From: Arthrobacter zhaoxinii
Lineage (GTDB): Bacteria > Actinomycetota > Actinomycetes > Actinomycetales > Micrococcaceae
Reading direction: 5' to 3'
NCBI RefSeq assembly: GCF_024385505.1
Contig: NZ_JANFLT010000006.1
Coordinates: 620,001 to 684,000 of the forward strand
DNA: 64,000 nucleotides
The notes below the pieces were generated by a model, which saw only the letters and a list, made by a program, of their open reading frames with translations, made no database searches and was not told the origin of the DNA. Positions 48,144 to 64,000 of the stretch are shown here, piece after piece; the stretch's first letter is position 1, and each line of letters opens with the position of its first letter. The position numbers and the translations under genes were made by a program.

Positions 48144-48515
48144 ATGGCTGAAGAGCAGCCGGTTTCACACGCTGCGCACCCGGAACAGGTGGACTTCCGG
48201 GACGTCCAGAGCTCGCCTGAGTTCCAGGAACTGCGCAAGCGCCAGCGCAGCTTTATTTTCCCCATGGCAGTGGTTTTCCTGGTCTGGTACTTCGCGTACG
48301 TCCTGCTGGCCGACTACGCCCACGAATTTATGTCGACTCCGGTGATCGGGAACATCAACATGGGCCTGATCCTCGGCCTGCTGCAGTTTGTGAGCACGTT
48401 CGGCATCACCATGTGGTACGTCAGCTACGCCAACCGCAAGATGGACCCCCTTGCGGCGGATCTCCGCCGTGACCTTGAGGCCCACGGAGTAAGCCGCCCG
48501 GAGGAGACGAAGTGA
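48144..48515 (+). CDS. DUF485 family membrane protein
   Basis: The 123-residue protein has two helices near residues 48-70 and 77-103 with a typical DUF485 core (FQELRKRQRSFIFPMAVVFL, then VWYFAYVLLADYA). Proteins of this family (YjcH in E. coli) are encoded next to the acetate symporter ActP. ATG at 48144 has GAGGAGGA directly upstream, which decides against ATG at 48105. It overlaps actP by 4 bases. Confidence 0.93.
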   Translation: MAEEQPVSHAAHPEQVDFRDVQSSPEFQELRKRQRSFIFPMAVVFLVWYFAYVLLADYAHEFMSTPVIGNINMGLILGLLQFVSTFGITMWYVSYANRKMDPLAADLRRDLEAHGVSRPEETK

Positions 48516-50140
48516 ACAGCCTGCACATTTCCGCCGCCACTGATGTTACGGCCGAGTCCATTAAGGATACCGGCCTGCTCAACATGATCATTTTCGGTGT
48601 CTTCGTGGCAGTCACCCTCGTGGTGGTGCTCCGCGCGAGCCGCAACAACAAGACGGCGGCCGACTACTACGCCGCCGGCCGGTCCTTCACCGGGCCGCAG
48701 AACGGCACCGCCATTGCCGGCGACTACCTCTCCGCGGCGTCCTTCCTCGGCATTGTCGGGGCCATCGCCGTGAACGGCTATGACGGCTTCCTGTACTCCA
48801 TTGGCTTCCTCGTTGCCTGGCTCGTCGCCCTGCTGCTGGTTGCTGAAATGCTCCGCAACACCGGCAAGTTCACCATGGCCGATGTGCTCTCCTTCCGGCT
48901 CAAGCAGCGTCCGGTCCGCATTGCGGCAGCCATCACCACCCTGGCGGTCTGCTTCTTCTACCTCCTGGCGCAGATGGCCGGCGCAGGTGGACTGGTCTCC
49001 CTGCTGATGGGTATCGACAGCAAGATCGGGCAGTCCCTGGTGATTACCGTCGTCGGCGCCCTGATGATCATTTATGTATTGATCGGCGGCATGAAGGGCA
49101 CCACCTGGGTGCAGATCATCAAGGCCTTCCTGCTGATTGCAGGCGCGGCCATCATGACCGTCTGGGTCCTGGCCCTGCACAACTTCAACCTCTCGGACCT
49201 GCTGGGGGCAGCCGTCGAGACCACCGGCAATCCCGCCATCCTGGATCCGGGGCTGCAGTACGGCAAGTCGGACACCTCCAAGCTGGACTTCGTCTCCCTC
49301 GGACTGGCTTTGGTGCTGGGCACCGCCGCCCTGCCGCACGTGCTGATGCGTTTCTACACGGTTCCCACCGCCAAGGAAGCCCGCCGGTCCGTTGTCTGGG
49401 CCATCTGGCTGATCGGCATCTTCTACCTGTTCACCCTGGTCCTGGGCTACGGCGCCGCGGCACTGATCGGTTCCGAAGCCATCGCCAGCGCTCCCGGCGG
49501 AGTGAACTCGGCAGCACCGCTGCTCGCCTTCGCACTGGGCGGACCGGTGCTGCTGGGACTGATTTCCGCCGTCGCCTTCGCCACCATCCTCGCGGTGGTC
49601 GCAGGCCTGACCATCACGGCAGCGGCGTCCTTCGCCCACGACATCTACGCCAACGTCATCCGTAAGGGTGAGGTGGACGCAGACGGAGAAGTGAAGGTAG
49701 CCCGCACCACGGTGGTGGTGATCGGCATCATCTCGATCCTGGGCGGCATCGGCGCACAGGGGCAGAACGTGGCCTTCCTGGTGGCCCTCGCCTTCGCAGT
49801 GGCAGCCAGTGCCAACCTGCCCACGATCGTGTACTCGCTCTACTGGAGGAAGTTCTCCACACAGGGTGCACTGTGGAGCATGTACGGCGGCCTCGCGTCG
49901 GCAATCCTGCTCATTGCGTTCTCGCCGGTGGTTTCCGGTGCGGAAACCTCGATGATCTCCGGGGTGGACTTCCACTGGTTCCCGCTCAACAACCCGGGCA
50001 TCGTGTCCATCCCGCTGGCCTTCTTCCTGGGCTGGCTGGGCACCGTGCTGGATAAGAACACCGAATCCGCCATCAAGCAGGCAGAGATGGAAGTCCGGTC
50101 CCTGACCGGCGTCGGCGCCGAAAAGGCCGTCGACCACTAA
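48512..50140 (+). CDS. actP: Cation/acetate symporter
   Basis: The 542-residue membrane protein has about 13 helices and ActP-type SSS motifs: YYAAGRSFTGPQNGTAIAGD near residue 50, GGMKGTTWVQIIKAFLL near 190 and LPHVLMRFYTVPTAKEARRS near 272. It takes up acetate or a similar short carboxylate with a cation. The DUF485 partner is translated just before it through a GTGA overlap. A LytTR-type and a CRP-type site lie upstream. Confidence 0.93.
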   Translation: MNSLHISAATDVTAESIKDTGLLNMIIFGVFVAVTLVVVLRASRNNKTAADYYAAGRSFTGPQNGTAIAGDYLSAASFLGIVGAIAVNGYDGFLYSIGFLVAWLVALLLVAEMLRNTGKFTMADVLSFRLKQRPVRIAAAITTLAVCFFYLLAQMAGAGGLVSLLMGIDSKIGQSLVITVVGALMIIYVLIGGMKGTTWVQIIKAFLLIAGAAIMTVWVLALHNFNLSDLLGAAVETTGNPAILDPGLQYGKSDTSKLDFVSLGLALVLGTAALPHVLMRFYTVPTAKEARRSVVWAIWLIGIFYLFTLVLGYGAAALIGSEAIASAPGGVNSAAPLLAFALGGPVLLGLISAVAFATILAVVAGLTITAAASFAHDIYANVIRKGEVDADGEVKVARTTVVVIGIISILGGIGAQGQNVAFLVALAFAVAASANLPTIVYSLYWRKFSTQGALWSMYGGLASAILLIAFSPVVSGAETSMISGVDFHWFPLNNPGIVSIPLAFFLGWLGTVLDKNTESAIKQAEMEVRSLTGVGAEKAVDH

Positions 50141-50172: not shown

Positions 50173-50712
50173 TCAGGCGGAGCCTGCCTTTGCTGTTGCC
50201 GGGGTCCGGTCCGGGCGCAAAGGGTCCGGCGACGACGGCGGGGGCAGCCCCGCACCCCGGCGCAGCAGGGGAGCGGCACGCAGGGGAATGAGTTCGCCCA
50301 TGGCCAGGTTGGTGTCACAGCGCTCCACCCCCGCGATGGCGAGGATCTGCTTGTTGATACGGAACAGGTCTTCGGCGTCTGCAGCCACCACACGCAGCAG
50401 GATGTCGGCGTCTCCGGTGAGGCCGTGGGCTTCGACAACCTCGGGCAGCCCGGCCAGGTCTTCGGTGATCCGCGCCAGGCTCGGCTGGTGGACATGGACA
50501 TGCACAAACGCCATCAGGGGGTAGCCCAGGGCGGCAGCGCTGATCCGGCGCTCGAACGGCAGAAAAGCCCCCTTGCGTTCCAGACCGGCCAGCCGCGCCT
50601 GAACCGTATTGCGGGAGAGGCCGAGTGCCGCGGCCAGGGCCACCGCCGTACGGGTGGAATCCTCCGCCAGGGCAAGCAGGAGGCGAAGGTCGGTGGCGTC
50701 GAGGGGCTGCAT
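50173..50712 (-). CDS. Lrp/AsnC-family transcriptional regulator
   Basis: The 179-residue protein has an N-terminal helix-turn-helix (MQPLDATDLRLLLALAEDS then ALGLSRNTVQARL) and a RAM ligand-binding domain (VVEAHGLTGDADILLRVVA) followed by a Pro-rich tail. Lrp-type proteins sense amino acids. It diverges from the branched-chain ketoacid dehydrogenase genes 161 bases away, so it may act like the Lrp-type activator BkdR of Pseudomonas. ATG at 50712 is chosen by homology. Confidence 0.9.
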   Translation of the reverse strand: MQPLDATDLRLLLALAEDSTRTAVALAAALGLSRNTVQARLAGLERKGAFLPFERRISAAALGYPLMAFVHVHVHQPSLARITEDLAGLPEVVEAHGLTGDADILLRVVAADAEDLFRINKQILAIAGVERCDTNLAMGELIPLRAAPLLRRGAGLPPPSSPDPLRPDRTPATAKAGSA

Positions 50713-50796
50713 AGTGCGCAACGCTAGCACGGCGTTAGAACCGTTTATAGGGCAGGATGCTCGGTCTTTGGAGGAATGGTTGTGCCAAGTGTTAAG

Positions 50797-50812
50797 TGTG
50801 AGTAGGGTCACA
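50797..50812 (+). promoter_or_regulatory. Perfect CRP/GlxR-type site before the E1 alpha gene
   Basis: TGTGA-GTAGGG-TCACA matches all ten conserved positions of the CRP/GlxR consensus. It is 61 bases before the start of bkdA and in the divergent gap with the Lrp gene. A smaller inverted repeat AACGC-N7-GCGTT at about 50720 may be an Lrp half. Confidence 0.75.
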
Positions 50813-50873
50813 TGTACCCGGGCAATGGAGCCCGGAGTCGGCCCCGCCACCCCTGGGGCCCAAACACGGAAGG

Positions 50874-52016
50874 ATGCGTATCCAAGTGTCCCTGCATACC
50901 CCGGTGCGGCACCCGGAAAACTCCGGCAGTTTCCCCACCGACCCGTACGTACAGCTCGTCACTCCCGACGGCATCCGCACCCCCGACCCCCTGTATGACC
51001 GCTGGATCGAGGACATCGACGGAGCCCGGCTGCAGGAGCTCTACATCGACATGGCTGTCATCCGCCGCATCGATACCGAAGCAACGGCCCTGCAGCGCCA
51101 GGGCGAGCTGGGGCTGTGGCCTCCGCTGCTCGGCCAGGAAGCCGCACAGATCGGCTCCGTGCGTTCCCTGCGTTCCTCCGACTTCGTTTTTCCCAGCTAC
51201 CGGGAGAATGGCGTGGCCTACTGCCGCGGAGTGGAGCCCGGGGACCTGATGAAGGTCTGGCGCGGCAACGCCGGCGCCGGCTGGGACCCGTATCAGGTGA
51301 ACATGGCACCCACCCAGGTCATTATCGGCGCCCAGGCCCTGCATGCCGCCGGGTACGCCATGGGCATCACCCGCGACGGTACCGACGACGCCGTGATCAG
51401 CTACTTCGGCGACGGCGCCACCAGCCAGGGCGATGTCAACGAGGCCATGGTGTTTGCCGCGAGCTTCAACTCCCCGGTGGTTTTCTTCTGCACGAACAAC
51501 CAGTGGGCCATCTCCGAACCGGTGACCCTGCAGGCGCAGGTACCCATCGCCAACCGCGCCCCGGGCTTCGGCATTCCGTCCATCCGCGTGGACGGCAACG
51601 ACGTACTTGCGGTCATGGCCGCCACCCGGGAGGCCCTGGACCGGGCCCGCTCCGGCAACGGACCGACCTTCATTGAAGCGGTCACCTACCGGATGGGTCC
51701 GCACACCACAGCCGATGACCCAACGCGCTACCGGGACTCCGCCGAACTGGAACGGTGGCGGTTAAAGGATCCGCTGACCCGGCTTCAGGCACTGCTGGTC
51801 TCCATGGATCTGTTCACCGAGGAGTTCGCCGCCGAAGCCGCCCGCCGCGCCGACGACGTGGCTGCCGAGCTGCGCGCCGCGTGCCTCGGGATGCCGGACC
51901 CGCTGCCTGCGGATGTTTTTGCCCATGTCTATTCCGAGCCCCACTCCTGGCTGGACCGCCAGCAGGAGCAGTACTCGCGCTATCTCAGCGGTTTCGCTGG
52001 CGAGGAGAACCGTTAA
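50874..52016 (+). CDS. bkdA: Branched-chain 2-oxo acid dehydrogenase E1, alpha subunit
   Basis: The 380-residue ThDP enzyme subunit decarboxylates the keto acids of Leu, Ile and Val (pyruvate is an alternative). The ThDP/magnesium motif GDGATSQGDVNEAM, followed by a CTNNQWAIS segment, is near residues 180-212, and the phosphorylation-loop region TYRMGPHTTADDPTRY near 271. It overlaps E1 beta by one base (TAATG). Beside a leucine-degradation operon, a branched-chain role is favoured over pyruvate. Confidence 0.9.
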   Translation: MRIQVSLHTPVRHPENSGSFPTDPYVQLVTPDGIRTPDPLYDRWIEDIDGARLQELYIDMAVIRRIDTEATALQRQGELGLWPPLLGQEAAQIGSVRSLRSSDFVFPSYRENGVAYCRGVEPGDLMKVWRGNAGAGWDPYQVNMAPTQVIIGAQALHAAGYAMGITRDGTDDAVISYFGDGATSQGDVNEAMVFAASFNSPVVFFCTNNQWAISEPVTLQAQVPIANRAPGFGIPSIRVDGNDVLAVMAATREALDRARSGNGPTFIEAVTYRMGPHTTADDPTRYRDSAELERWRLKDPLTRLQALLVSMDLFTEEFAAEAARRADDVAAELRAACLGMPDPLPADVFAHVYSEPHSWLDRQQEQYSRYLSGFAGEENR

Positions 52017-53035
52017 TGACCAGCATGACTTTCGGGCGGGCAATCAATGCCGGCCTGCGCCGGGCGATGGAGCAGGATCCCCGCGTCCTCATTATGGGTG
52101 AGGACGTCGGCAAGCTCGGCGGCGTTTTCCGGATCACCGACGGACTCCAGAAGGACTTCGGTCCGCTGCGGGTGGTAGACACCCCGCTCGCCGAGTCCGG
52201 GATCATGGGCACAGCCGTGGGACTGGCGTTCCGCGGCTACCGCCCCGTAGTGGAAATCCAGTTCGACGGCTTCATCTACCCGGCATTCGACCAGATCGTG
52301 TCCCAGGTGGCGAAGATGCACTACCGGTCCCGCGGAACGGTGAAGCTGCCGCTGACCATCAGGGTGCCCTTCGGCGGCGGCATCGGTTCCCCTGAACACC
52401 ACTCCGAATCGCCCGAGGCATACTTCACCCACACCTCGGGGCTGCGCGTGATCAGCGTGTCCAACCCGCAGGACGCCTACACCATGATCCAGCAGGCCAT
52501 TGCCTCCGACGATCCGGTGCTCTACTTCGAACCGAAGCGCCGCTACCACGTCAAGGGCGAGGTGGACGAAGCAGCGGCACCGCAGCTTCCCATGGGCTCC
52601 GCGCGGGTGGTCAGCGAGGGGACCGACGTGACCCTGGTGGCGTACGGACCGCTGGTTCCCACCGCACGCGACGCCGCCGTGGCTGCCTCGGATGAAGGCG
52701 TGTCCGTGGAAGTCATTGACCTGCGCTCCCTGGCACCGATCGACTTCGCCACGGTGGAGGGCTCCGTGCGGAAGACCGGCCGGCTGGTGATCACGCATGA
52801 AGCTGCCCAGTCCGGCGGCGTGGGAGCCGAGATCGCCGCGAGCATCACCGAACGCTGCTTCGAGTACCTGGAGCATGCACCGGTCCGGGTGACCGGCTTC
52901 GACATCCCGTATCCGCCCGCCCGGCTGGAATCCCATCACCTGCCGGACCTCGACCGCATCCTTGACGGTGTCGACTGCGTGCTGGACCGGCCCAGTTCCC
53001 TGGCCGGCGTCGTTTCCGGATCGGCGGCGAGCTGA
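52016..53035 (+). CDS. bkdB: Branched-chain 2-oxo acid dehydrogenase E1, beta subunit
   Basis: The 339-residue partner completes the alpha2-beta2 E1. It begins MTSMTFGRAINAGLRRAMEQ and has GEDVGKLGGVFR near residue 24, VEIQFDGFIYPAFDQIVSQ near 79 and a C-terminal transketolase domain with VEVIDLRSLAPID. ATG at 52016 overlaps the previous stop; the frame is open upstream inside bkdA but not coding. It overlaps bkdC by one base. Confidence 0.93.
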   Translation: MTSMTFGRAINAGLRRAMEQDPRVLIMGEDVGKLGGVFRITDGLQKDFGPLRVVDTPLAESGIMGTAVGLAFRGYRPVVEIQFDGFIYPAFDQIVSQVAKMHYRSRGTVKLPLTIRVPFGGGIGSPEHHSESPEAYFTHTSGLRVISVSNPQDAYTMIQQAIASDDPVLYFEPKRRYHVKGEVDEAAAPQLPMGSARVVSEGTDVTLVAYGPLVPTARDAAVAASDEGVSVEVIDLRSLAPIDFATVEGSVRKTGRLVITHEAAQSGGVGAEIAASITERCFEYLEHAPVRVTGFDIPYPPARLESHHLPDLDRILDGVDCVLDRPSSLAGVVSGSAAS

Positions 53036-54405
53036 TGCTGCGCGAATTCCGCCTCCCGGACCTGGGGGAGGGGCTCACCGAGTCCGAGATCCTGAACTGG
53101 CACGTCAGCGTGGGGGACATCGTTGAGTTGAACCAGGTGATCGCCGATGTGGAGACCGCCAAGGCCGTGGTTGAACTGCCGTCGCCGTACGCCGGCATCG
53201 TGGCGCAGCTGCACGAACCGGCGGGGACCGTGGTGGAGGTCGGTTCTCCGATTGTGTCGTTCGAGGTCGCGGTGCCGGCCGGCGCAGACACGGGTGCGCC
53301 CGAGGCAGGCGCCGGACCCGTGTCTGCGAAACGGGAGCCGACTCTGGTGGGCTACGGAGCGGTACCCGACTCCGGGGGACGCCCGGCCCGGCGGCGCCGC
53401 GGGCAGGCTCCCGCTGCGGATCCCGTCCCTGCCTCGGTCCCTGCTGTCGTGCCTGCAGATTCCGCACCTGCAGCGACGCCTGCACCCACGCCTGCACCGG
53501 TGCATGAACGTCCGCGGTCCACTCCGCCGGTCCGCAAGCTGGCCCGGGATATGGGAGTGGATCTCACCCAGGTGCAGGGATCCGGTCCGGGCGGGCTCGT
53601 GGTGCGTACCGACGTCGTCCGTGCTGCTTCACCGGCCGCCGAAACGATGCAAACGTCCGCACCTGACGCCGCCGCTGCCGCGCCTGCCCCGCCGCCACCT
53701 GCGGGACGGGAGGAGCGGACAGCGATCTCCGGCATGCGGAAGCATACTGCCGCCGCCATGGTGGCCAGCGCGTTCACGGCTCCCCATGCCACGGTGTTCC
53801 TTACCGTGGATGTCACTCCCACCATGGAACTCCTGAAACGGCTCCGGCAGCAGCCGGCCTTCGAGGGCCTGAAGCTGTCCCCGCTGACGCTGGCAGCCAA
53901 GGCAGTGTGCCTGGGGCTGCGGCGCTTCCCGTCGCTGAATTCGCGGTGGGATGAGTCGGCGCGGGAAATCGTCCGCTACAACTATGTGAACCTCGGCATC
54001 GCGGCGGCGACCCCGCGCGGGCTGATGGTTCCCAATATCAAGGACGCCCAGACGCTGAGCCTGCACGGCCTCGCCGCGGCCGTGACGGCGCTGGCACAGA
54101 CCGCGCGGGACGGGAAAACGCCGCCGGCAGACCTGACCGGCGGAACCATCTCCATCTCCAACGTGGGGGTGTTCGGCGTCGACGCCGGGACGCCCATTCT
54201 GAATCCGGGAGAAGCGGGCATCCTGGCGCTGGGAGCGGTTCGGCGGCAGCCCTGGGAGTACGAGGGGGCCATCGCCCTTCGCTCGGTTATGACGCTGAGC
54301 CTCTCCTTCGACCACCGGCTGGTGGACGGCGAGCAGGGGGCCGGGTTCCTGAGTGACGTGGGAGCGGTCCTGGCCGATCCCGCGCTGGCGCTGGCCATGG
54401 CCTAA
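53035..54405 (+). CDS. bkdC: Dihydrolipoamide acyltransferase (E2) of the 2-oxo acid dehydrogenase
   Basis: The 456-residue E2 core has one lipoyl domain (residues 1-78; lipoyl-lysine Lys43 in VETAKAVVEL), an Ala/Pro linker, a peripheral subunit-binding domain (TPPVRKLARDMGVDLTQVQG near 162) and the catalytic domain ending in His427 and Asp431 of DHRLVDG. It passes the acyl group to CoA. E3 is not in the window. A hairpin GCTCC...GGGAGC at about 54414-54456 follows. Confidence 0.93.
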   Translation: MLREFRLPDLGEGLTESEILNWHVSVGDIVELNQVIADVETAKAVVELPSPYAGIVAQLHEPAGTVVEVGSPIVSFEVAVPAGADTGAPEAGAGPVSAKREPTLVGYGAVPDSGGRPARRRRGQAPAADPVPASVPAVVPADSAPAATPAPTPAPVHERPRSTPPVRKLARDMGVDLTQVQGSGPGGLVVRTDVVRAASPAAETMQTSAPDAAAAAPAPPPPAGREERTAISGMRKHTAAAMVASAFTAPHATVFLTVDVTPTMELLKRLRQQPAFEGLKLSPLTLAAKAVCLGLRRFPSLNSRWDESAREIVRYNYVNLGIAAATPRGLMVPNIKDAQTLSLHGLAAAVTALAQTARDGKTPPADLTGGTISISNVGVFGVDAGTPILNPGEAGILALGAVRRQPWEYEGAIALRSVMTLSLSFDHRLVDGEQGAGFLSDVGAVLADPALALAMA

Positions 54406-54542
54406 ACCGCCGTGCTCCTTGGGGAAGGCCGACTTACGCCCGTCTTCCCCGGGAGCAGTCAGGCCGGTCCCCGAAACAACGCTCCGATAACGAAATCCCG
54501 GCAGCGGTTCACCGGCCCGGGCGGACTGTTAGCGTCGTGCGC

Positions 54543-54938
54543 ATGAGAAAACGACATTTGCCAACCGTCGCTGCAGCCCTCGTCTCGGGTGTCCTTCTGG
54601 CCGGCTGTACGGGTCAGGACCAACAGACCCAGCAGGAGCCGGCAGCATCCGGGGAAGCCAGTGCAACTGCCGCTCCTGTTTCCGGCACCTACACGGGGAC
54701 GCAGACCTTCGACCTGGGCACTCCGCCGGCGGAAGCAACGGAGATCGCCGTGGAGATCACCTGCCTTGATGCGGGCACCCTTACCCTGCCCAGCGGTGCG
54801 GAAGTCACGTGCCGGGATTCCACCGAGCGGATGACGACAGGCATCTGGTCGTTTCCGCTGGTCCCGGGACAGCACACCGTTGAGGTTCAGGCGAGCGAGC
54901 CAGCCATCAGCTACGAAGTGAAAATCGCCTACGCATAG
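54543..54938 (+). CDS. Putative lipoprotein
   Basis: The 131-residue protein starts MRKRHLPTVAAALVSGVLLA, then GC, a lipobox LLAGC with the lipidated cysteine near residue 21. A Gln/Glu/Ala-rich spacer and a small beta-rich domain (GTYTGTQTFDLGTPPAEATE, two later cysteines) follow. It is probably an outer-face lipoprotein of unknown function. GTG at 54537 is an alternative start. Confidence 0.72.
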   Translation: MRKRHLPTVAAALVSGVLLAGCTGQDQQTQQEPAASGEASATAAPVSGTYTGTQTFDLGTPPAEATEIAVEITCLDAGTLTLPSGAEVTCRDSTERMTTGIWSFPLVPGQHTVEVQASEPAISYEVKIAYA

Positions 54939-54950
54939 TCAGTTGCCGCT

Positions 54951-55010
54951 GCCGCCCCGGAGAAATCCGGGGCGGCTCTTAGCGTGCTGCGGCCGGGACC
55001 GGCAGCACGC
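54951..55010. terminator. Two adjacent terminator-like hairpins
   Basis: GCCGCCCCGGA/TCCGGGGCGGC (54951-54976) has a perfect 11-base stem followed by a short T-containing tail. GCGTGCTGC/GCAGCACGC (54982-55010) comes next. They separate the lipoprotein gene from the convergent GNAT gene. Confidence 0.82.
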
Positions 55011-55014
55011 AGCC

Positions 55015-55482
55015 CTAGCGAAGTTCGAGCTCGAGTTCCTTCACCACGGCACCGCGGGCATTGGCAAAGCCCTGCGTTTCGCCGATGACCGTAAAGCCGT
55101 ACTTTTCCAGGATGCGGATGGAACTGACGTTGTCCGCCACTGCCCGGGCGCGGATCGGCCGTTCGGCGAACTCCTCCAGGAACAAGCCCACCGCCGCGGT
55201 GGTAATGCCCTGCCCCCAGCGTGCCTTATCGATCCAGTAGCTGATCTCGGGGATGTCGCCGTCCCGGTACGCCAGAATGCTGCCTGCCACCTCGCCGTCG
55301 GCCACAATGGTGCGCACCGTGACGGTCGGATCATTGAGGATGCTCTGCCAGTGATGGTCGAAGACGCCGCGGTCTGCTGGATTCTTGGCGCTGAACGCGG
55401 CCATATGGTTGGCGCTCGGGTCCAGCTGGTGGGAGAAGAACTCCTCCAGGTCGGCGGGAACTACGGCACGAAGCTCAATCAC
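55015..55482 (-). CDS. GNAT-family acetyltransferase (RimJ/RimL-like)
   Basis: The 155-residue protein starts with GTG (VIELRAVVPADLEEFF) and has the acetyl-CoA loop ARWGQGITTAAVGLFLEEF near residue 88 and VADNVSSIRILEKYGF near 113, the pattern of RimJ/RimL-type N-acetyltransferases. The acceptor is unknown. Starts further upstream in the same frame do not resemble the family. Confidence 0.82.
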   Translation of the reverse strand: MIELRAVVPADLEEFFSHQLDPSANHMAAFSAKNPADRGVFDHHWQSILNDPTVTVRTIVADGEVAGSILAYRDGDIPEISYWIDKARWGQGITTAAVGLFLEEFAERPIRARAVADNVSSIRILEKYGFTVIGETQGFANARGAVVKELELELR

Positions 55483-55544
55483 GGCAGGTCTTTCTGCTCG
55501 GGGGTGGAGTTCGGCCCGCCGGAAGGAACCGGCGGGCAGATAAG

Positions 55545-56174
55545 TTACTGGGCGTTCAAGGCCGCCCACGCCATTCTATCGAGCAGCGTACGCAGCCTTG
55601 CCGTTTCACGGGCGCTGATGCGGCCATGGATGGTATGGGACGTGGAATTGATCAGGCCGAAGACCCCCTGCGCCCGGTGGCGCAGCAACGGAAGGTCGGA
55701 AGCGGAATGCAGGGCGGAAAGTGCATCCACCCAGACCTCCACATACTGCCGCTGCAGGGAGCGTACCCGCCGCTCGTCGGTTTCGGGCAGGCTGCCCAGA
55801 TCCCGGTCCTGGACCCGGATCACGTCCGCCTGCCGAAGTGCGAAGTCAACCTGGAATTCGACCAGGCCGCGGAGGGCTTTTTCCGGTGTCGCGGACTCGG
55901 CAACCACGGCCTTTCCGCCCTCCAGCAGGTCCTCGCTGACTCCGATCAACAGGGCGGACAGCACTGCCGGTTTGCCGCTGAAGTGCCGGTAGACCGCCGG
56001 TCCGCTGACCCCCGCTGCCGCGCCCAGCTCCTCAATGGAAACCCCGTTGTAGCCGCGCTCGGCAAACAGGGCCGCAGCGGCGTCGAGCATTACGGCCCTA
56101 CGCGAAGCCTTCGCCTGGCTGCGTCCCGTCATCCGCACCGTTTCCGGAGCTGTTTCGTTTTTTGCTACGTCCAT
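55545..56174 (-). CDS. TetR-family regulator of the leucine/isovalerate operon
   Basis: The 209-residue repressor starts MDVAKNETAPETVR; GGGAGGGTGGGA just upstream selects ATG at 56174 over 56213. The helix-turn-helix is at about residues 38-63 (SIEELGAAAGVSGPAVYRHF). It diverges from the carboxylase operon, with a large palindrome between them. A TetR gene holds the equivalent position in M. tuberculosis. A branched acyl-CoA or CoA is a likely effector (inferred). Confidence 0.88.
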   Translation of the reverse strand: MDVAKNETAPETVRMTGRSQAKASRRAVMLDAAAALFAERGYNGVSIEELGAAAGVSGPAVYRHFSGKPAVLSALLIGVSEDLLEGGKAVVAESATPEKALRGLVEFQVDFALRQADVIRVQDRDLGSLPETDERRVRSLQRQYVEVWVDALSALHSASDLPLLRHRAQGVFGLINSTSHTIHGRISARETARLRTLLDRMAWAALNAQ

Positions 56175-56229
56175 TCCCACCCTCCCGATTGGACTGCGCA
56201 TATATATTCCCATTGTGGTGGACAGGTGA

Positions 56230-56270
56230 GTTAATAACCAATAACCTGACTTGGGTTAGGGGTTATTAAC
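56230..56270. promoter_or_regulatory. Candidate TetR operator
   Basis: GTTAATAACC (56230-56239) and GGTTATTAAC (56261-56270) are perfect 10-base arms, with inner TAACC/GGGTTA partly continuing the symmetry. The 41-base AT-rich site stands out in GC-rich DNA, 56 bases from the TetR start and 48 from the carboxylase gene. Confidence 0.75.
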
Positions 56271-56318
56271 CCAGCTTAGTACGGGGTTATCCCTCGCTGC
56301 TGCTGCAGAAAGACGTCA

Positions 56319-57923
56319 ATGGAGACACTGAAATCCGGGCTGGACACAGCCTCGGCCGCCTTTGCACAAAATACGGCTGCCCAGCAGGCGCTGGCACAGG
56401 AGCTGCGCGGACGGCTCGCGGAGGCCGCCGTGGGCGGACCGCTGCGCTCCCGCGAGCGGCATACCGCCCGCGGAAAGCTGCTGCCCCGGGAACGGGTTGA
56501 CCGGCTCCTGGACGAGGGCAGCCCGTTCCTCGAGGTGGCGCCGCTGGCCGCAGCGGACATGTACGACGGCGAGTGCCCCGGAGCGGGGCTGATCGCCGGC
56601 ATCGGCCTGGTGCAGGGCCGGCAGGTGATGATCCTGTCCAATGACGCCACGGTCAAGGGCGGCACCTACTACCCGATGACCGTCAAAAAGCACCTGCGGG
56701 CACAGGAAATAGCACTGGAAAACCGGCTGCCGTGCATTTACCTGGTGGACTCCGGCGGAGCTTTCCTGCCCCGGCAGGACGAGGTTTTTCCCGACCGGGA
56801 GCATTTCGGCAGGATTTTCTTCAACCAGGCGCAAATGTCCGCGCGGAAAATTCCGCAGATCGCCGCCGTCCTGGGTTCCTGCACCGCCGGCGGCGCCTAT
56901 GTCCCGGCCATGAGCGATGAAACGGTCATAGTGCGCAACCAGGGCACGATCTTCTTGGGCGGTCCGCCGCTGGTGAAGGCCGCCATCGGAGAGATCGTGA
57001 CGGCGGAGGAGCTGGGCGGCGGAGACGTGCATTCGCGCACCAGCGGCGTCACCGACCACCTGGCCGAAAACGATGCCCATGCCCTGGAAATAGTGCGCAG
57101 CATCGTGGAGACCTTTCCGCAGCAGGAACCGGTATGGGACATTGCGGAGTCCAGGCCGCCCGCCGAGGATCCGGCGGAAATCTACGGCGTGGTCCCCACC
57201 GATCTGCAGACGCCCTACGACGTCCGCGAACTCATCGCCCGCCTGGTGGATGCCAGCGAGTTCCATGAGTTCAAGAAGGAGTACGGCGCCACCCTGGTCA
57301 CCGGCTTTGCGCGGCTGCACGGCCACCGGATCGGCATCGTCGCCAACAACGGCGTGCTGTTCAGCGAATCCGCGCTCAAGGGCGCGCACTTCATTGAACT
57401 GTGCGACCAGCGCGGCATCCCGCTGGTCTTCCTGCAGAACATCTCCGGGTTCATGGTGGGCCGGGACTACGAGGCCGGCGGCATTGCGAAGAACGGCGCC
57501 AAGATGGTGACCGCGGTGGCCACCTGCCGGGTACCCAAACTCACCGTCGTGGTGGGCGGGTCCTTCGGTGCCGGCAATTACTCCATGTGCGGCCGGGCGT
57601 ACTCGCCGCGCTTTATGTGGATGTGGCCGGCGGCCCGGATCTCGGTGATGGGCGGCGCCCAGGCATCCTCGGTGCTGGCCACGGTGAAGCGGGACCAGCT
57701 CGAGGGCCGCGGCGAGCAGTGGCCTGCCGAGGACGAGGAAGCCTTTAAGACGCCCATCCGGGAAACCTACGAAACCCAGGGCAGCCCCTACTACTCGACG
57801 GCCCGGCTCTGGGACGACGGCATCATCGACCCCCTCGATACCCGCACCGTCCTGGGCCTGGCCCTGGACGTCTGCGCCAACGCACCCCTGCCGGAGACCT
57901 CCTTCGGCCTGTTCCGGATGTGA
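56319..57923 (+). CDS. accD1: Methylcrotonyl-CoA carboxylase, carboxyltransferase (beta) subunit
   Basis: The 534-residue carboxyltransferase moves CO2 from carboxybiotin to the acyl-CoA. Motifs: [18 protein letters not shown] near residue 55, [20 protein letters not shown] near 145, and a second oxyanion site [16 protein letters not shown] near 410. SGGAFLPRQ and [12 protein letters not shown] favour a methylcrotonyl-CoA over a propionyl-CoA enzyme. It opens the operon after the TetR operator and is followed by the biotin subunit 6 bases on. Confidence 0.93.
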
Positions 57924-57929
57924 GCGACT

Positions 57930-60092
57930 ATGACCCCGCAGCCCTCTAACGCCGCACCGCTTTTCGACACCGTGCTGGTCGCCAACCGCGGCGAAATCGC
58001 CTGCCGGGTGATCCGCACCCTGCGCACACTCGGGATCCGCTCGGTGGCGGTCTACAGCGACGACGACGCCGGCGCCCGCCACGTGCGTGAAGCCGACCTG
58101 GCAGTCCGGCTGGGCCCAGCGCCCGCCCGGGACAGCTACCTGTCCGTGGACGCCGTGCTCGCGGCCTGCCGCAGCACCGGGGCGCAGGCCGTGCATCCCG
58201 GGTACGGCTTCCTGAGTGAAAACGCCGAGTTTGCCTCGGCCCTCGCGGACGCCGGAATCACCTTCATCGGCCCGCCCGTCCGTTCCCTCGATTTGATGGG
58301 GGACAAGATCCGGGCCAAGAACCATGTCCAGGCACACGGCGTGCCGGTGGTTCCCGGCATCGCGGAGCCTGGCCTGGACGATGCCCGGCTGCTGGCGGCC
58401 GCGGCCGACGTCGGCTATCCGATCCTGATCAAGCCCTCCGCCGGCGGAGGCGGCAAGGGCATGCAGGCCGTAGAGAACCCCGGGGACCTGCCGGCGGCGC
58501 TGCAGACCGCGCGGCGGGTGGCTGCCTCGGCCTTCGGGGACGACACCCTGTTCCTGGAACGGCTGGTCTCCTCACCCCGGCACATCGAGGTGCAGATCCT
58601 CGCGGATACCCACGGGAACGTGGTCCATCTGGGGGAGCGGGAGTGTTCCCTGCAGCGCCGGCACCAGAAGGTCATCGAGGAAGCACCGTCCGTGCTGCTG
58701 GACGCGGCCACCCGGGACCGCATCGGGGAGGCAGCCTGCAACGCCGCCCGGTCCGTGGACTACACCGGTGCCGGAACCGTGGAGTTCCTGGTGTCCGACG
58801 CCGCTCCGGACGAGTTCTTCTTTATGGAAATGAACACGCGCCTGCAGGTGGAACATCCGGTGACCGAAATGGTCACCGGAGTAGACCTGGTGGCGGAACA
58901 GCTCCGCATCGCCGCCGGCCATCCGCTGTCCCTCAAGCAGGAGGACGTCACCCTGACGGGGCACGCAGTGGAAGCCCGGATCTACGCAGAGGACCCGGAG
59001 CGGGACTTCCTGCCGACGTCGGGCTCGGTGCAGTGGCTGCGTGAACCCGACGGCGAGGGCATCCGCGTGGACTCCTCCCTGCTGCCCGGCCTGGCCGTGT
59101 CCTCCAGCTACGACCCGATGCTGGCCAAGGTTATCGCCTGGGGACCGGACCGCGCCGCCGCGCTCGCCCGCCTGGACACGGCGCTCGCCGGTACTGCGGT
59201 GCTGGGCATCGGCACCAATGTGGAATACCTCCGGCTGCTGCTGGCCGATCCCGATGTCCGTGCCGGACGGCTGGACACCACCCTGATCGAGCGGCGGCTG
59301 CCCGGGCTGAAGTTCCGGTCCCCGCAGGCTCCCGAGATCGCGGCCGCCGCCCTGCTCTATCTGCAGGGCCTGGAGGTCCCGGCGTCGGGGTCGCCCTGGC
59401 GGCGGGCGGACGGCTGGCGGATCGGCGGCAGCGGAGCGGAGGCAGGCAGCGGCAACGCCGGCGCGCCCCTGCACCTGGTGTTCGCCGCCCCGGCGTCCGA
59501 CGGCGGCGACGTCGACGTGAGCGTGACGGGAACCGCACGGGACGCAACGGTACGGATCGGCGGGACGGTATACGCTGCCGGACTGACGGCCGGCGCCGAC
59601 GCCCGGACCGGCGGACGCGTCAGCGTTTCCCTGGACGGGGTGCTGCATACCTTCACGGGGGCCGCCGAACCGGGCACCGGCGCGTTCTGGCTGGCCGGAG
59701 GCAGTGCGGGGGAGCTGTTCACGGTGCGCCTGCGCCTGCGGAGCCGCCGCGAGCAGCTGGACCGCCAGCTGGCCGCGGCCGGCCGCGAAGCCGGCGACGT
59801 GGACCCCGCGGTCCGCTCGCCGATGCCCGGCACCGTGGTGGCCGTGGCCGTGGCGGACGGCGACCGGGTACTTGCCGGTACGCCGCTGCTCAGCGTGGAG
59901 GCCATGAAGATGGAACACCAGCTGCGCGCTCCGATGGCCGGCATCGTCTCCCTCAGCCTCCGCCCCGGGGATCTGGTCAAGGCCGACCAGGTCCTTGCCG
60001 TGCTCACACCGGAACCGGTATCCGGTTCCCTCCCTAACCCGCACGATGACCCGCCCGCCCAGAACCAAGGAGAAGACCATGCCCGACTTTGA
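57930..60092 (+). CDS. accA1: Acyl-CoA (methylcrotonyl-CoA) carboxylase, biotin-containing alpha subunit
   Basis: The 720-residue subunit has biotin carboxylase at residues 8-455 ([23 protein letters not shown]-grasp [12 protein letters not shown] near 170, [19 protein letters not shown] near 302), an intermediate domain, and a C-terminal biotinyl domain with Lys660 in EAMKMEHQ. It charges biotin with bicarbonate and ATP for AccD1. Its end overlaps the acyl-CoA dehydrogenase start by 14 bases. Confidence 0.94.
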
Positions 60093-61242
60093 CCTCAGCG
60101 AGGAATACCAGGACCTCTCGGACACCGTGCGGGACTTCGCCGACGAAGTCATTGCCCCCGTGTCCGCCCAGCACGACGCGGAGCACAGCTTCCCCTACAA
60201 GGTCATCGCCCAGATGGGGGAGATGGGACTGTTCGGCCTGCCCTTCCCGGAGGAGTACGGCGGCATGGGCGGGGACTACTTCGCCCTGGCCCTCGCGCTG
60301 GAGCAGATTGCCCGAGTGGACCAGTCCGTGGCCATTACCCTGGAAGCCGGAGTCTCCCTCGGCGCCATGCCCGTGTACCGCTTCGGCAATGAAGAGCAGA
60401 AGCAGCAGTGGCTGCCCCTGCTGGCCAGCGGCGAGGCGCTCGCAGGGTTCGGCCTGACCGAACGCGAGGCAGGGTCCGACGCCGGCGGCACCAAGACCAC
60501 CGCGCGGCTGGAGGACGGGCAGTGGGTCATCAACGGCAGCAAGGAGTTCATCACCAACTCCGGCACCGACATCACCCGCCTGGTGACGGTCACCGCCGTG
60601 ACGGATACCGTCACGGAGCCGGACGGTTCCGTCCGGAAGCTCATTTCCACCATCCTCGTACCCACCGGAACACCGGGCTTCACGGCGGAAAAACCGTACA
60701 ACAAGGTGGGCTGGAACGCATCGGACACCCATCCGCTGACGCTGACCGACGTCCGGGTGCCCGAGGCGAACCTGCTGGGTGCCCGCGGCCGGGGCTTTGC
60801 GAACTTCCTGCAGATCCTCGACGAGGGGCGCATCGCCATTGCCGCCCTCGCCACCGGTGCCGCCCAGGGGTGCGTGGATGAATCCCTCCGCTACGCGAAG
60901 GAACGCGAGGCCTTCGGTGCGGCCATCGGCACCTATCAGTCGATCTCCTTCAAAATCGCCCGCATGCAGGCCCGGGCCCACACCGCCCGGCTGGCCTACT
61001 ACGACGCGGCGTCCCGGATGCTTGCCGGCCGCCCGTTCAAGACCCAGGCAGCCATCGCCAAGATGGTGGCCGGCGAAGCAGCCATGGACAACGCCCGCGA
61101 CGCCACCCAGATCTTCGGCGGCTACGGCTTCATCAACGACTTCCCCGTCGCCCGCCACTACCGCGATTCCAAGATCCTCGAAATAGGCGAAGGAACTACT
61201 GAGGTGCAGTTGATGCTGATTGCCCGCAGTATGGGCCTGTGA
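60079..61242 (+). CDS. Acyl-CoA dehydrogenase, probable isovaleryl-CoA dehydrogenase (FadE19-like)
   Basis: A 387-residue FAD enzyme with [14 protein letters not shown] near residue 129, [15 protein letters not shown] near 152 and C-terminal [20 protein letters not shown]. The base is expected at Glu371 in EIGEGTTEV. Classical isovaleryl-CoA dehydrogenases carry alanine there and use a glutamate elsewhere, so the active site is of the general type. Context makes isovaleryl-CoA (or a branched relative) the likely substrate. ATG at 60079 has AAGGAG upstream. Confidence 0.88.
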
Positions 61243-61286
61243 CAACCGCCCGTGTCTTTGCCGACCGACTGTGAACGGATAAGCCC

Positions 61287-62072
61287 ATGATCAATAAGGT
61301 GTACCCCGGTGCGGCCGAGGCCGTCGCCGACATTCCCGACGGCGCTTCCCTGGCTGTGGGCGGTTTCGGCCTCTGCGGCATACCGGTGGCGCTGATCGAC
61401 GCGCTGCATGAGCAGGGCACCACGGACCTGGAAACGGTGAGCAACAACTGCGGCGTGGATGACTGGGGCCTCGGCCGCCTCCTGGCGGACCACCGGATCC
61501 GGCGCACCACCAGCTCCTACGTGGGCGAAAACAAGGAATTTGCCCGCCAGTTCCTGTCCGGGGAACTCGAAGTAGTGCTGACCCCGCAGGGCACCCTGGC
61601 CGAGAAGCTGCGTGCCGGGGGCGCCGGCATCCCGGCCTTCTTCACCCCGGCCGGGGTGGGCACGCAGGTGTCCGAGGGCGGCCTGCCGCAGAAGTACGAC
61701 GCCGAGGGCGGCGTGGCGCTGGCCTCCGAAGCCAAGGAGATCCGCAGCTTCTCCGGCGCGGACTATGTGCTGGAGGAATCCCTCACCCCCGACTTCGCCC
61801 TGGTCCATGCGGCAAAAGGGGACCGGCACGGAAACCTGGTCTTCCACGCCACCGCCATGAACTTCAATCCGCTCTGCGCCATGGCCGGGCGGATCACCAT
61901 TGCCGAGGTCGAGGAACTGGTGGAACCCGGTGAACTGGACCCCGAACACATCCACGTTCCGGGGATCTTTGTCCAGCGGGTGGTGCTGGCCTCCGACGGG
62001 GAGAAGCGGATTGAAAAGCGGACCGTCACGGCCGCCGAAAGCAGAAGCACCAACGGAAGCAAGGAGTCCTGA
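61287..62072 (+). CDS. scoA: 3-oxoacid CoA-transferase, subunit A
   Basis: The 261-residue subunit begins [19 protein letters not shown] and has the CoA-binding [17 protein letters not shown] near residue 22 and [20 protein letters not shown] near 102. With subunit B it moves CoA between succinyl-CoA and acetoacetate, the end product of leucine breakdown. It lies 44 bases after the dehydrogenase gene and directly before subunit B. Confidence 0.94.
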
Positions 62073-62073
62073 G

Positions 62074-62715
62074 ATGGCACTGTCCCGCCAGGAACTGGCC
62101 GCCCGGGTAGCCCGCGAGCTGCAGGACGGCCAATACGTGAACCTCGGCATCGGCATGCCCACGCTGATCCCCAACTACATCCCCGAGGGCGTGGAAGTGG
62201 TGCTCCATTCCGAGAACGGAATCCTCGGCGTCGGGCCGTACCCCACCGAAGACCAGCTGGACCCGGACCTGATCAACGCCGGGAAGGAAACCGTCACCGT
62301 GAACAGCGGTGCGTCCTTCTTTGATTCCGGTGCCTCCTTCGGGATGGTGCGCGGCGGGCATGTGGACGTGGCGGTGCTGGGCGCCATGGAAGTGGCGGCC
62401 AACGGCGACCTGGCCAACTGGATGGTGCCCGGGAAGATGGTCAAGGGCATGGGCGGGGCCATGGACCTGGTGTTCGGAGCCAAGCGCGTGATTGTCATGA
62501 TGGAGCATCTGGACCGGGCGGGACGGCCCAAGATCGTGCGGGAATGTTCCCTGCCGCTGACCGGAAAGGGCTGCGTGGACCTGATCGTCACCGATCTGGC
62601 CGTGATCGAGGTCGGGCCGGAGGGGCTGGTCCTGCGCGAGACCGCCCCCGGCGTCAGCGTCGAGGACGTACTTGCCGGCACCGATGCCCCGCTGGAGGTT
62701 TCCCTTGACGTATGA
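62074..62715 (+). CDS. scoB: 3-oxoacid CoA-transferase, subunit B
   Basis: The 213-residue subunit carries the catalytic glutamate (Glu47) in [12 protein letters not shown], which forms the enzyme-CoA thioester, and [20 protein letters not shown] before it. ATG at 62074 begins [19 protein letters not shown]; the open frame upstream is inside scoA. It overlaps the MaoC gene by 11 bases. Confidence 0.94.
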
Positions 62716-63253
62716 GGAGCCCGGCGCGGGAACGGACGAGCCGGCGATGGCTCCCCGGATCATTGAGCAGCGCGGCCTCTGGTACGAGGAGTTCCAGCCC
62801 GGGGTCGTTTACCGGCACCGGCCGGGCCGTACGGTGACCGAGGCGGACAACGTCCTGTTCACCACCCTGACCATGAACACCCAGGGCCTGCACCTGGATG
62901 CCGCCTACAGCGCAGCCTCTGAGTTCGGGCAGCGGCTGGTGAACTCCATGTTCACCCTGGCCACCATGGTCGGCCAGTCGGTGGCGCAGCTGACGCAGGG
63001 CACCCTGGTGGCGCAGCTGGGGCTGGGGGAAATCAGCTTTCCGCATCCCCTCTTCCACGGCGACACCCTCTATACCGAGACTGAAGTGGTGGATATGAGG
63101 CTCTCCTCCTCCCGGCCCGGGCAGGGAATCGTCACGCTGGCCCATACCGGCAGGAACCAGCGCGGCGACGTCGTGGCCAGGTGCAGCCGGACGGCCCTGA
63201 TGTGGACTGCCGAGGGATACGCCGCGCAGGAGGCAGGCACCGGGACACGGTAG
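62705..63253 (+). CDS. MaoC-family hydratase (methylglutaconyl-/itaconyl-CoA hydratase candidate)
   Basis: The 182-residue protein has a hot-dog-fold MaoC domain: [40 protein letters not shown] with an Asp-x4-His-like catalytic pair, then [19 protein letters not shown] at 62705 has GGAGG 6 bases upstream; ATG at 62747 is possible. In M. tuberculosis the homologous neighbour (Rv2499c) hydrates methylglutaconyl-CoA/itaconyl-CoA. The same job here is inferred from synteny with the following CitE-like gene. Confidence 0.87.
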
Positions 63254-63296
63254 GTTGGATCGGCAAGCAACGCCGAAGATACCGAGGAGTACAGCC

Positions 63297-64000
63297 ATGA
63301 CCACCTTCCCCATGGGACCAGCACTGCTTTTCTGCCCGGGGGACCGGCCGGAGCGCTTCGGCAAGGCGGAGCGGGCGGATGCCGTCATCCTCGATCTGGA
63401 GGATGCCGTCGCTCCCCGGGACAAGGAAGCGGCCCGGAAGAACCTCATCGCCGCGGAACTGGATCCCGAACGCACCATCGTCCGGGTCAACCCGCTCGGG
63501 ACCGAGGACTTTGAGCTCGACCTGGCAGCCCTGGCACAGACCCCGTACCGCACGGTGATGCTGGCCAAGACAGAGGACGGACCCGCCGTCGCCCGGGCGC
63601 TCGCCGGCTTCACCGTCGTCGCGCTGCTGGAAACCGCGTTGGGCGTGGTGCGGGCTGCCGAGATTGCCTCCACGGAGAACGTGGCGGCCCTGATGTGGGG
63701 CGCCGAGGACCTGCTGGCCTCGCTCGGCGGAGAATCCAGCCGCCACCAGGACGGGACCTACCGCAGCGTTGCCGTACAGGCGCGGTCCACGGTCCTGCTG
63801 GCCGCGGGCGCCTTCGGCAAGGGAGCCATCGACTCGATCTACGGCAACATCCCGGATACCGAGGGACTCGAGGTCGAAGCGCGCGACGCCGTCGCGTCCG
63901 GTTTCGCGGCCAAGGCCTGCATCCATCCCGGCCAGGTCGCTGCCGTGCGCGCTGCCTATGCACCGGACCCGGCCGATGTCACGTACGCCGAGCAGGTGTT
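63297..64000 (+). CDS. citE: CitE-like beta-hydroxyacyl-CoA lyase, 3' end cut by the window
   Basis: From ATG 63297 (GAGGAG upstream) the frame stays open for 234 codons to the edge. It opens MTTFPMGPALLFCPGDRPER and has VILDLEDAV (metal ligand region) near residue 33, IVRVNPLGTEDFELDL near 61, a LLETALGV strand near 107 and ACIHPGQV near 218. This is the HpcH/HpaI aldolase, citrate-lyase-beta family. The M. tuberculosis relative (Rv2498c) cleaves HMG-CoA and citramalyl-CoA; that role is inferred here. Confidence 0.9.
   Translation, partial: MTTFPMGPALLFCPGDRPERFGKAERADAVILDLEDAVAPRDKEAARKNLIAAELDPERTIVRVNPLGTEDFELDLAALAQTPYRTVMLAKTEDGPAVARALAGFTVVALLETALGVVRAAEIASTENVAALMWGAEDLLASLGGESSRHQDGTYRSVAVQARSTVLLAAGAFGKGAIDSIYGNIPDTEGLEVEARDAVASGFAAKACIHPGQVAAVRAAYAPDPADVTYAEQV

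Follow-up and report, generated by a model that had tools for sequence, protein, structure and literature searches.

A leucine-degradation regulon working through (R)-3-hydroxy-3-methylglutaryl-CoA (HMG-CoA) is very likely encoded at positions 50874-64106 of the stretch of Arthrobacter zhaoxinii DNA analysed here (assembly GCF_024385505.1, contig NZ_JANFLT010000006.1, positions 620,001 to 684,000 of the forward strand), a window of 64,000 nucleotides. The last gene, citE, ends at 64106, 106 bases beyond the window, and is whole in the genome. The locus consists of two blocks, bkdABC (50874-54405) and a seven-gene run from accD1 to citE (56319-64106), parted by genes for a small predicted lipoprotein, a GNAT protein and a TetR regulator. 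What the sequence itself shows is which genes are present and in what order, the operators, the active-site residues and the fact that no classical HMG-CoA lyase is detectable. The gene set itself is already known from tuberculosis bacteria, where an unusual lyase takes the place of the classical enzyme, and the main value of the finding lies in a comparative pattern. New here are the tight pairing of a MaoC-type hydratase with a CitE-type lyase across the bacterial class and the changes of layout on a tree of AccD1.

The initial annotation had named bkdABC, a TetR gene, accD1, accA1, an acyl-CoA dehydrogenase gene, scoA/B, a MaoC gene and a CitE-like gene. All of them proved, by translation and Pfam/NCBIfam scans, to be open frames matching their families. 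The features and the basis of each reading are as follows:

50173..50850, minus strand: Lrp/AsnC-type regulator, likely bkdR-like, divergent from bkdA (PF01037, PF13404)
50874..52016, plus strand: bkdA, 2-oxoacid dehydrogenase E1 alpha, taken to be of the branched-chain type (PF00676; TIGR03181 above cut-off)
52016..53035, plus strand: bkdB, E1 beta (PF02779, PF02780; start chosen in the analysis)
53035..54405, plus strand: bkdC, E2 acyltransferase with lipoyl and E3-binding domains (PF00198, PF00364, PF02817)
54543..54938, plus strand: small predicted lipoprotein of 131 aa, probably outside the pathway (lipobox-like start, by reading; coordinates counted by hand)
55015..55569, minus strand: GNAT acetyltransferase, probably outside the pathway (PF13302)
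55545..56213, minus strand: BkaR-like TetR regulator, divergent from accD1 (PF00440; NF050111 near cut-off; position; operators)
56230..56245, no strand: predicted BkaR operator, exact GTTANTNNNNANTAAC (motif of PMC3920632)
56255..56270, no strand: second predicted BkaR operator, one mismatch (GTTANTNNNNANTAAC pattern search)
56319..57923, plus strand: accD1, putative 3-methylcrotonyl-CoA carboxylase beta subunit (4q0g match; shared 16-residue stretch)
57930..60092, plus strand: accA1, putative biotin carboxylase/carrier subunit of the same carboxylase (PF21139 BT_MCC_alpha; biotin carboxylase and biotin domains)
60079..61242, plus strand: acyl-CoA dehydrogenase, likely isovaleryl-CoA dehydrogenase (FadE19-like), its substrate predicted (PF00441, PF02771, PF02770; 7szv; start chosen in the analysis)
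61287..62072, plus strand: scoA, 3-oxoacid CoA-transferase subunit A (TIGR02429 over cut-off; 3dlx)
62074..62715, plus strand: scoB, 3-oxoacid CoA-transferase subunit B (TIGR02428 over cut-off; start chosen in the analysis)
62747..63253, plus strand: MaoC-type hydratase, resembling Rv2499c in position and proposed to convert 3-methylglutaconyl-CoA to (R)-HMG-CoA (PF01575)
63297..64000 and on to 64106 (L005 5297-6106), plus strand: citE, CitE-like beta-hydroxyacyl-CoA lyase, Rv2498c-like (PF03328; 6aq4; active-site residues)

In the proposed pathway, BkdABC would convert the 2-oxoacid of leucine to isovaleryl-CoA, from which the acyl-CoA dehydrogenase would form 3-methylcrotonyl-CoA, to be carboxylated by AccD1-AccA1 to 3-methylglutaconyl-CoA. 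The MaoC hydratase would add water to give (R)-HMG-CoA, the CitE-like lyase would cleave this to acetyl-CoA and acetoacetate, and ScoAB would activate the acetoacetate with succinyl-CoA. The TetR protein is predicted to repress the divergent operon via the two operators until an intermediate releases it. The substrate and stereochemistry assigned to each enzyme, like the mode of regulation, are predictions from sequence.

The lyase has Rv2498c of Mycobacterium tuberculosis as its closest solved relative (6aq4, E 2e-79). Rv2498c cleaves (R)-HMG-CoA and (S)-citramalyl-CoA about equally well, and its metal- and substrate-holding residues have been named (PMC6689899). R64, E112, M133, G135, A136, E137 and D138 are all kept in the Arthrobacter lyase, and V181 is replaced by I. 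Orthologs were taken to be matches with 45% identity or more in 120 loci (40 from the class sample and 80 of Arthrobacter type). In the 97 so defined, R64, E112, G135, E137 and D138 are invariant, M133 is found in 96 and A136 in 95; at position 181, 85 carry V and 12 carry I. Judged by closest solved relative and by these residues, the lyase is of the Rv2498c type, in agreement with the initial annotation. AccD1 is closest among solved structures to M. tuberculosis AccD1 (4q0g, E 1e-265), which belongs to a 3-methylcrotonyl-CoA carboxylase, and it contains the 16-residue stretch common to the M. tuberculosis and P. aeruginosa enzymes (PMC4347857). AccA1 carries the BT domain of 3-methylcrotonyl-CoA carboxylase (PF21139), and by its sequence features accD1-accA1 is such a carboxylase, as befits a member of this regulon. 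The acyl-CoA dehydrogenase matches 7szv among solved structures (E 2e-199), and ScoA matches human SCOT (3dlx, E 2e-88), acetoacetate enzymes being its best matches.

The regulatory region points the same way. The BkaR core is GTTANTNNNNANTAAC, present in two copies in the divergent promoter (PMC3920632). Its exact form occurs once in the whole 3.5 Mb genome, at the expected place (56230-56245), and a second copy with one mismatch lies 25 bases further (56255-56270). With at most one mismatch, the pattern was found at 11 genome places against 8 for a reversed control pattern, so the signal lies in the single exact copy and the pairing rather than in the one-mismatch count. The TetR protein scored 240.9 bits against NF050111, slightly below the cut-off of 250. 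Taken by position and predicted sites, the divergent TetR gene with its two putative operators, one exact and one with one mismatch, is that of a BkaR regulon. Operators near AccD1 were sought from 350 bases upstream to 30 bases inside the gene. Among Arthrobacter-type loci with AccD1, 72 of 73 have an exact operator and 69 of 73 at least two sites with at most one mismatch; in a shuffled control, such a site occurred in 3 of 2260 stretches.

The initial annotation had made its reading hinge on there being no classical HMG-CoA lyase, and this held both past the window and genome-wide. No mvaB-type gene occurs in the stretch read beyond citE, and NF004283 (HMG-CoA lyase) has no match in the genome (12 contigs, completeness 100% as a table value). 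A whole-genome search with PF00682 returned three proteins, none of them a classical HMG-CoA lyase; they are instead 2-isopropylmalate synthase, a pyruvate-carboxylase-subunit-B-like protein and pyruvate carboxylase. The subunit-B-like protein (527 aa; L002 997-2580, contig C8), for which transcarboxylase 5S is the alternative likeness, is encoded besides a full pyruvate carboxylase. As a control of detection, NF004283 was over its cut-off in 49 of 119 genomes of the phylum sample, and in 14 control genomes it matched in 5, over cut-off in 3. Within the same family (n=119), it matched at E 1e-40 or better in 32 genomes and over cut-off in 13, with 67 genomes without a match outside those listed; of the six listed genomes of the genus, four have matches below cut-off and two, this genome among them, have no match.

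Conservation of the locus was assessed in the best 80 of 166 lyase relatives, which come from Arthrobacter and near kin and are close relatives only; the nearest are those of Arthrobacter sp. zg-Y844 (97% identical) and A. yangruifuii (95%). Because 73 of the 80 loci keep the same order from BkaR to CitE, the gene set can be called usual for the Arthrobacter group, and no classical lyase was found at these 73. Gene by gene, MaoC and ScoB are present in 78 loci, ScoA in 76, the dehydrogenase in 75, AccA1 in 74, and AccD1 and BkaR in 73 each. Six of the remaining seven loci are cut by contig ends, and one (L060, A. citreus DSM 20133) is a true exception.

Wider sampling covered 296 genomes of the class (thresholds E 1e-200 for AccD1, 1e-55 for the lyase and 1e-60 for NF004283), with AccD1 found in 173, the CitE-type lyase in 67 and NF004283 in 198. 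The 173 AccD1-positive genomes divide into 29 with CitE only, 104 with NF004283 only, 32 with both and 8 with neither, so that 165 have one lyase type or both. In the taxonomic order to which the window belongs, all 19 AccD1-positive genomes of this sample have the CitE-type lyase, 4 of them together with NF004283. In the phylum sample (n=119), AccD1 was matched at E 1e-110 in 42 genomes, 8 of them with best matches of 46-54% identity that are probably paralogs; the lyase was matched at E 1e-20 in 24, being at least 55% identical in 6 of those.

MaoC matches (E 1e-40) occur in 86 of the 296 class genomes, 65 with the lyase and 21 without. Distances were taken from the 67 genomes whose MaoC match reaches E 1e-56, and from one more with a shortened match (G260, E 5e-53), weaker rows being excluded. 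MaoC then lies within 2 kb of CitE in 64 of the 67 CitE-positive genomes; MaoC is 44 kb off in one of the other three, and no such MaoC was found in two. Of the 58 genomes for which both places were recorded, 42 have the lyase no more than 15 kb from AccD1 (of the other nine CitE-positive genomes, six have no AccD1 match and three no listed AccD1 place). Forty neighbourhoods were then compared, chosen by hand so that 20 came from genomes with and 20 from genomes without a CitE match. MaoC and CitE stand near AccD1 (within about 10 kb) in 17 of the CitE-positive neighbourhoods, with a classical lyase there in none; the CitE-negative ones hold a classical lyase in 14, MaoC alone in 1 and neither in 5. 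Part of this contrast arises because the loci were chosen by CitE status. Free of that choice is the observation that no CitE locus has an adjacent classical lyase, 6 of the 20 genomes carrying NF004283 elsewhere. A site with at most one mismatch lies upstream of AccD1 in 17 of 20 CitE-positive and 13 of 20 CitE-negative loci, and an exact operator in 13 of 20 versus 3 of 20.

On a quick AccD1 tree of 41 rows, at least three changes between the MaoC-CitE and classical labels are needed, with 9 unlabelled rows left out; 15 of the 38 inner branches are starred and 10 open, and because many of them are weak the count is a hint rather than a measure. MaoC-type hydratases yield (R)-hydroxyacyl-CoA and crotonase-type hydratases the (S)-form. 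A crotonase-type gene lies near the classical lyase in L046, L042 and, weakly, L047, and was not seen in the other 11 of the 14 loci. These loci, together with the MaoC hydratase that precedes an (R)-specific lyase, fit and suggest a rule that pairs hydratase with lyase by stereochemistry and has the two exchanged as a unit. We give roughly even chances to the broader proposition that MaoC and CitE form a portable module, which has traded places with the classical HMG-CoA lyase on several occasions in a single class, with carboxylase, dehydrogenase, TetR gene and operator largely unchanged and mirror-image leucine routes under one regulator. The (R)-route would then be the sole one left in such Arthrobacter, and itaconate use a by-product. 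Cleavage of HMG-CoA fits with the acetoacetate-activating genes at some clusters, namely ScoAB here and an acetoacetyl-CoA-synthetase-like gene in each of L022, L024 and L052, the last of which lacks CitE; L037, likewise without CitE, has a weaker match. In L052 (13800-18090), AccD1 and MaoC occur in a genome with no CitE or classical lyase match, and MaoC is followed by acyl-CoA ligase-like and acetoacetyl-CoA synthetase-like genes. No published account of this hydratase/lyase distribution was found in a literature search with supplements and most subscription journals outside its scope, and PMC12290011 makes no mention of leucine, HMG-CoA or Rv2498c.

Several observations weigh against assigning the locus, and the MaoC-CitE pair in general, to leucine degradation. 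NF004283 matches somewhere in 32 of the 61 genomes with AccD1 and CitE, the lyase and AccD1 lie more than 15 kb apart on one contig in 7 of 58 genomes and on separate contigs in 9 (some perhaps contig breaks), and an AccD1 match is missing in 6 of the 67 CitE-positive genomes. In L060, CitE has no partner within 10 kb upstream. E1 alpha passes the pyruvate dehydrogenase model TIGR03181 (440 bits, cut-off 411) and has a pyruvate dehydrogenase as closest solved relative, so that sequence does not settle its substrate. The pairs standing apart from AccD1, with their varied flanks (8 of 19 listed), could mean that MaoC-CitE is a general module for C5/C6 hydroxyacyl-CoA that is merely co-regulated here, another enzyme performing the HMG-CoA step. 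We hold this to be very improbable, since no other HMG-CoA lyase was found in this genome, the pair stays close to AccD1 in most CitE-positive neighbourhoods with no classical lyase beside it, and M. tuberculosis without the lyase stops growing on leucine (PMC6689899). The 19 isolated MaoC-CitE places were also considered as possible itaconate operons; a search with this genome's family III CoA-transferase and ScoAB found neither next to the pair, other CoA-transferase types not having been searched. That bkdABC encodes an additional dehydrogenase, of pyruvate or acetoin type and with no link to leucine, would accord with the TIGR03181 match and with pyruvate dehydrogenases being the best solved relatives, yet this too is unlikely. 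A separate full AceE is encoded elsewhere in the genome, and the Lrp-type gene divergent from bkdA fits amino-acid control. Moreover, 10 of the 20 CitE-positive loci have bkd-like genes next to the accD1 block, against one of the 20 CitE-negative loci with a bkdA match there (L047), and bkdC was detected in 58 of the 80 Arthrobacter-type loci, contig ends and flank limits included.

The itaconate question is less one-sided. The initial annotation had suggested a bifunctional route, of which the leucine part is borne out by gene set, operator, active-site residues and the failure to find a classical lyase, whereas the itaconate part finds no backing from the family models. The lyase scored 143.7 bits against RipC/Ccl (NF038242, cut-off 375) and the hydratase 160.2 bits against RipB/Ich (NF038241, cut-off 340), both too far below for either protein to count, by family, as an itaconate enzyme. 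A truly bifunctional operon, in which scoA-scoB-maoC-citE would in vivo also carry out the whole of itaconate breakdown (transfer of CoA to itaconate, then hydration yielding (S)-citramalyl-CoA and its cleavage to pyruvate and acetyl-CoA), is a possibility that we rate as less likely than not. Genes for the three steps are adjacent at the Arthrobacter locus, and Micrococcus belongs to the same family as Arthrobacter. Rv2498c cleaves (S)-citramalyl-CoA and its loss causes a growth defect on itaconate, and the reference list of the same paper holds a title on itaconate use by a Micrococcus sp. (PMC6689899). A review ascribes itaconate CoA-transferase activity to Rv2503c and itaconyl-CoA hydratase activity to Rv2499c (PMC13307414), but credits this to PMC6689899, whose main text calls both enzymes unidentified. 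Against bifunctionality stand also the acetoacetate enzymes as best matches of ScoA, and another lyase of the CitE kind, sharing about 40% identity with that of the locus, which adjoins a same-strand family III CoA-transferase (L133 8177-10218, contig C2 near 195 kb). This pair could serve citramalate, mesaconate or itaconate in place of the locus. Citramalyl-CoA cleavage as a chemical ability is likely for the Arthrobacter lyase by analogy with Rv2498c, and from the same likeness its bifunctionality is possible.

Some further observations concern the surroundings of these genes. A sodium/solute symporter-like gene (by reading) lies at 48512-50140, upstream of the bkd block, and 3' of citE follow a gene for an NAD(P)-binding protein and then dxr, rseP and ispG, the last three read from translations. 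In L060 (399-10819), the lyase gene keeps its downstream neighbours and its usual place before a dxr-like gene; the 10 kb upstream hold amidase-, monooxygenase-, maleate-isomerase- and isochorismatase-like genes (by reading), perhaps an inserted degradation island. ADP-ribosylglycohydrolase-like and sugar-transport-like genes (by reading) surround the second CitE-like gene. In L138 and L139, the MaoC-CitE pair has as neighbours a MerR-like gene and, in divergent orientation, an acyl-CoA dehydrogenase gene (by reading); neither genome has an AccD1 match. In L140, no flanking frame passed the filter applied.

When it was published, from work on the tuberculosis bacterium, the (R)-HMG-CoA route was called unprecedented; in that organism it is bound up with infection. 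The present genes suggest that common soil Arthrobacter normally break down leucine this way, which makes an origin for life in macrophages unlikely and allows the route to be studied in harmless laboratory strains. The pairing of hydratase type with lyase type also offers a simple and testable annotation rule for leucine operons whose lyase is labelled citrate lyase.

Among known systems, the bkaR regulon of M. tuberculosis and M. smegmatis (Rv2495c-Rv2506) is alike in its enzymes, in the divergent TetR gene with two core operators, and in the Rv2498c-type lyase with its active-site residues (PMC3920632, PMC4347857, PMC6689899). The Arthrobacter locus differs in that bkdABC forms a separate block with its own Lrp/AsnC gene, scoAB lies inside the operon between dehydrogenase and maoC, there is no fadD35-like gene between the TetR gene and accD1, and no NF004283 lyase was found in the genome. 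The itaconate operon ict-ich-ccl (RipA, RipB, RipC) shares the families of MaoC-type hydratase and HpcH/CitE-type lyase, whereas the Arthrobacter hydratase and lyase fall far under its curated cut-offs and the CoA-transferase is of SCOT type. The classical mvaB-type operon, with an (S)-HMG-CoA lyase, is represented by 14 of the 20 CitE-negative loci (L033-L036, L038-L042, L045-L047, L049 and L050). It shares AccD1 and AccA1 and, in many cases, also the acyl-CoA dehydrogenase and a BkaR-like gene with its operator, and differs in carrying an HMGL-family HMG-CoA lyase where Arthrobacter has MaoC and CitE.

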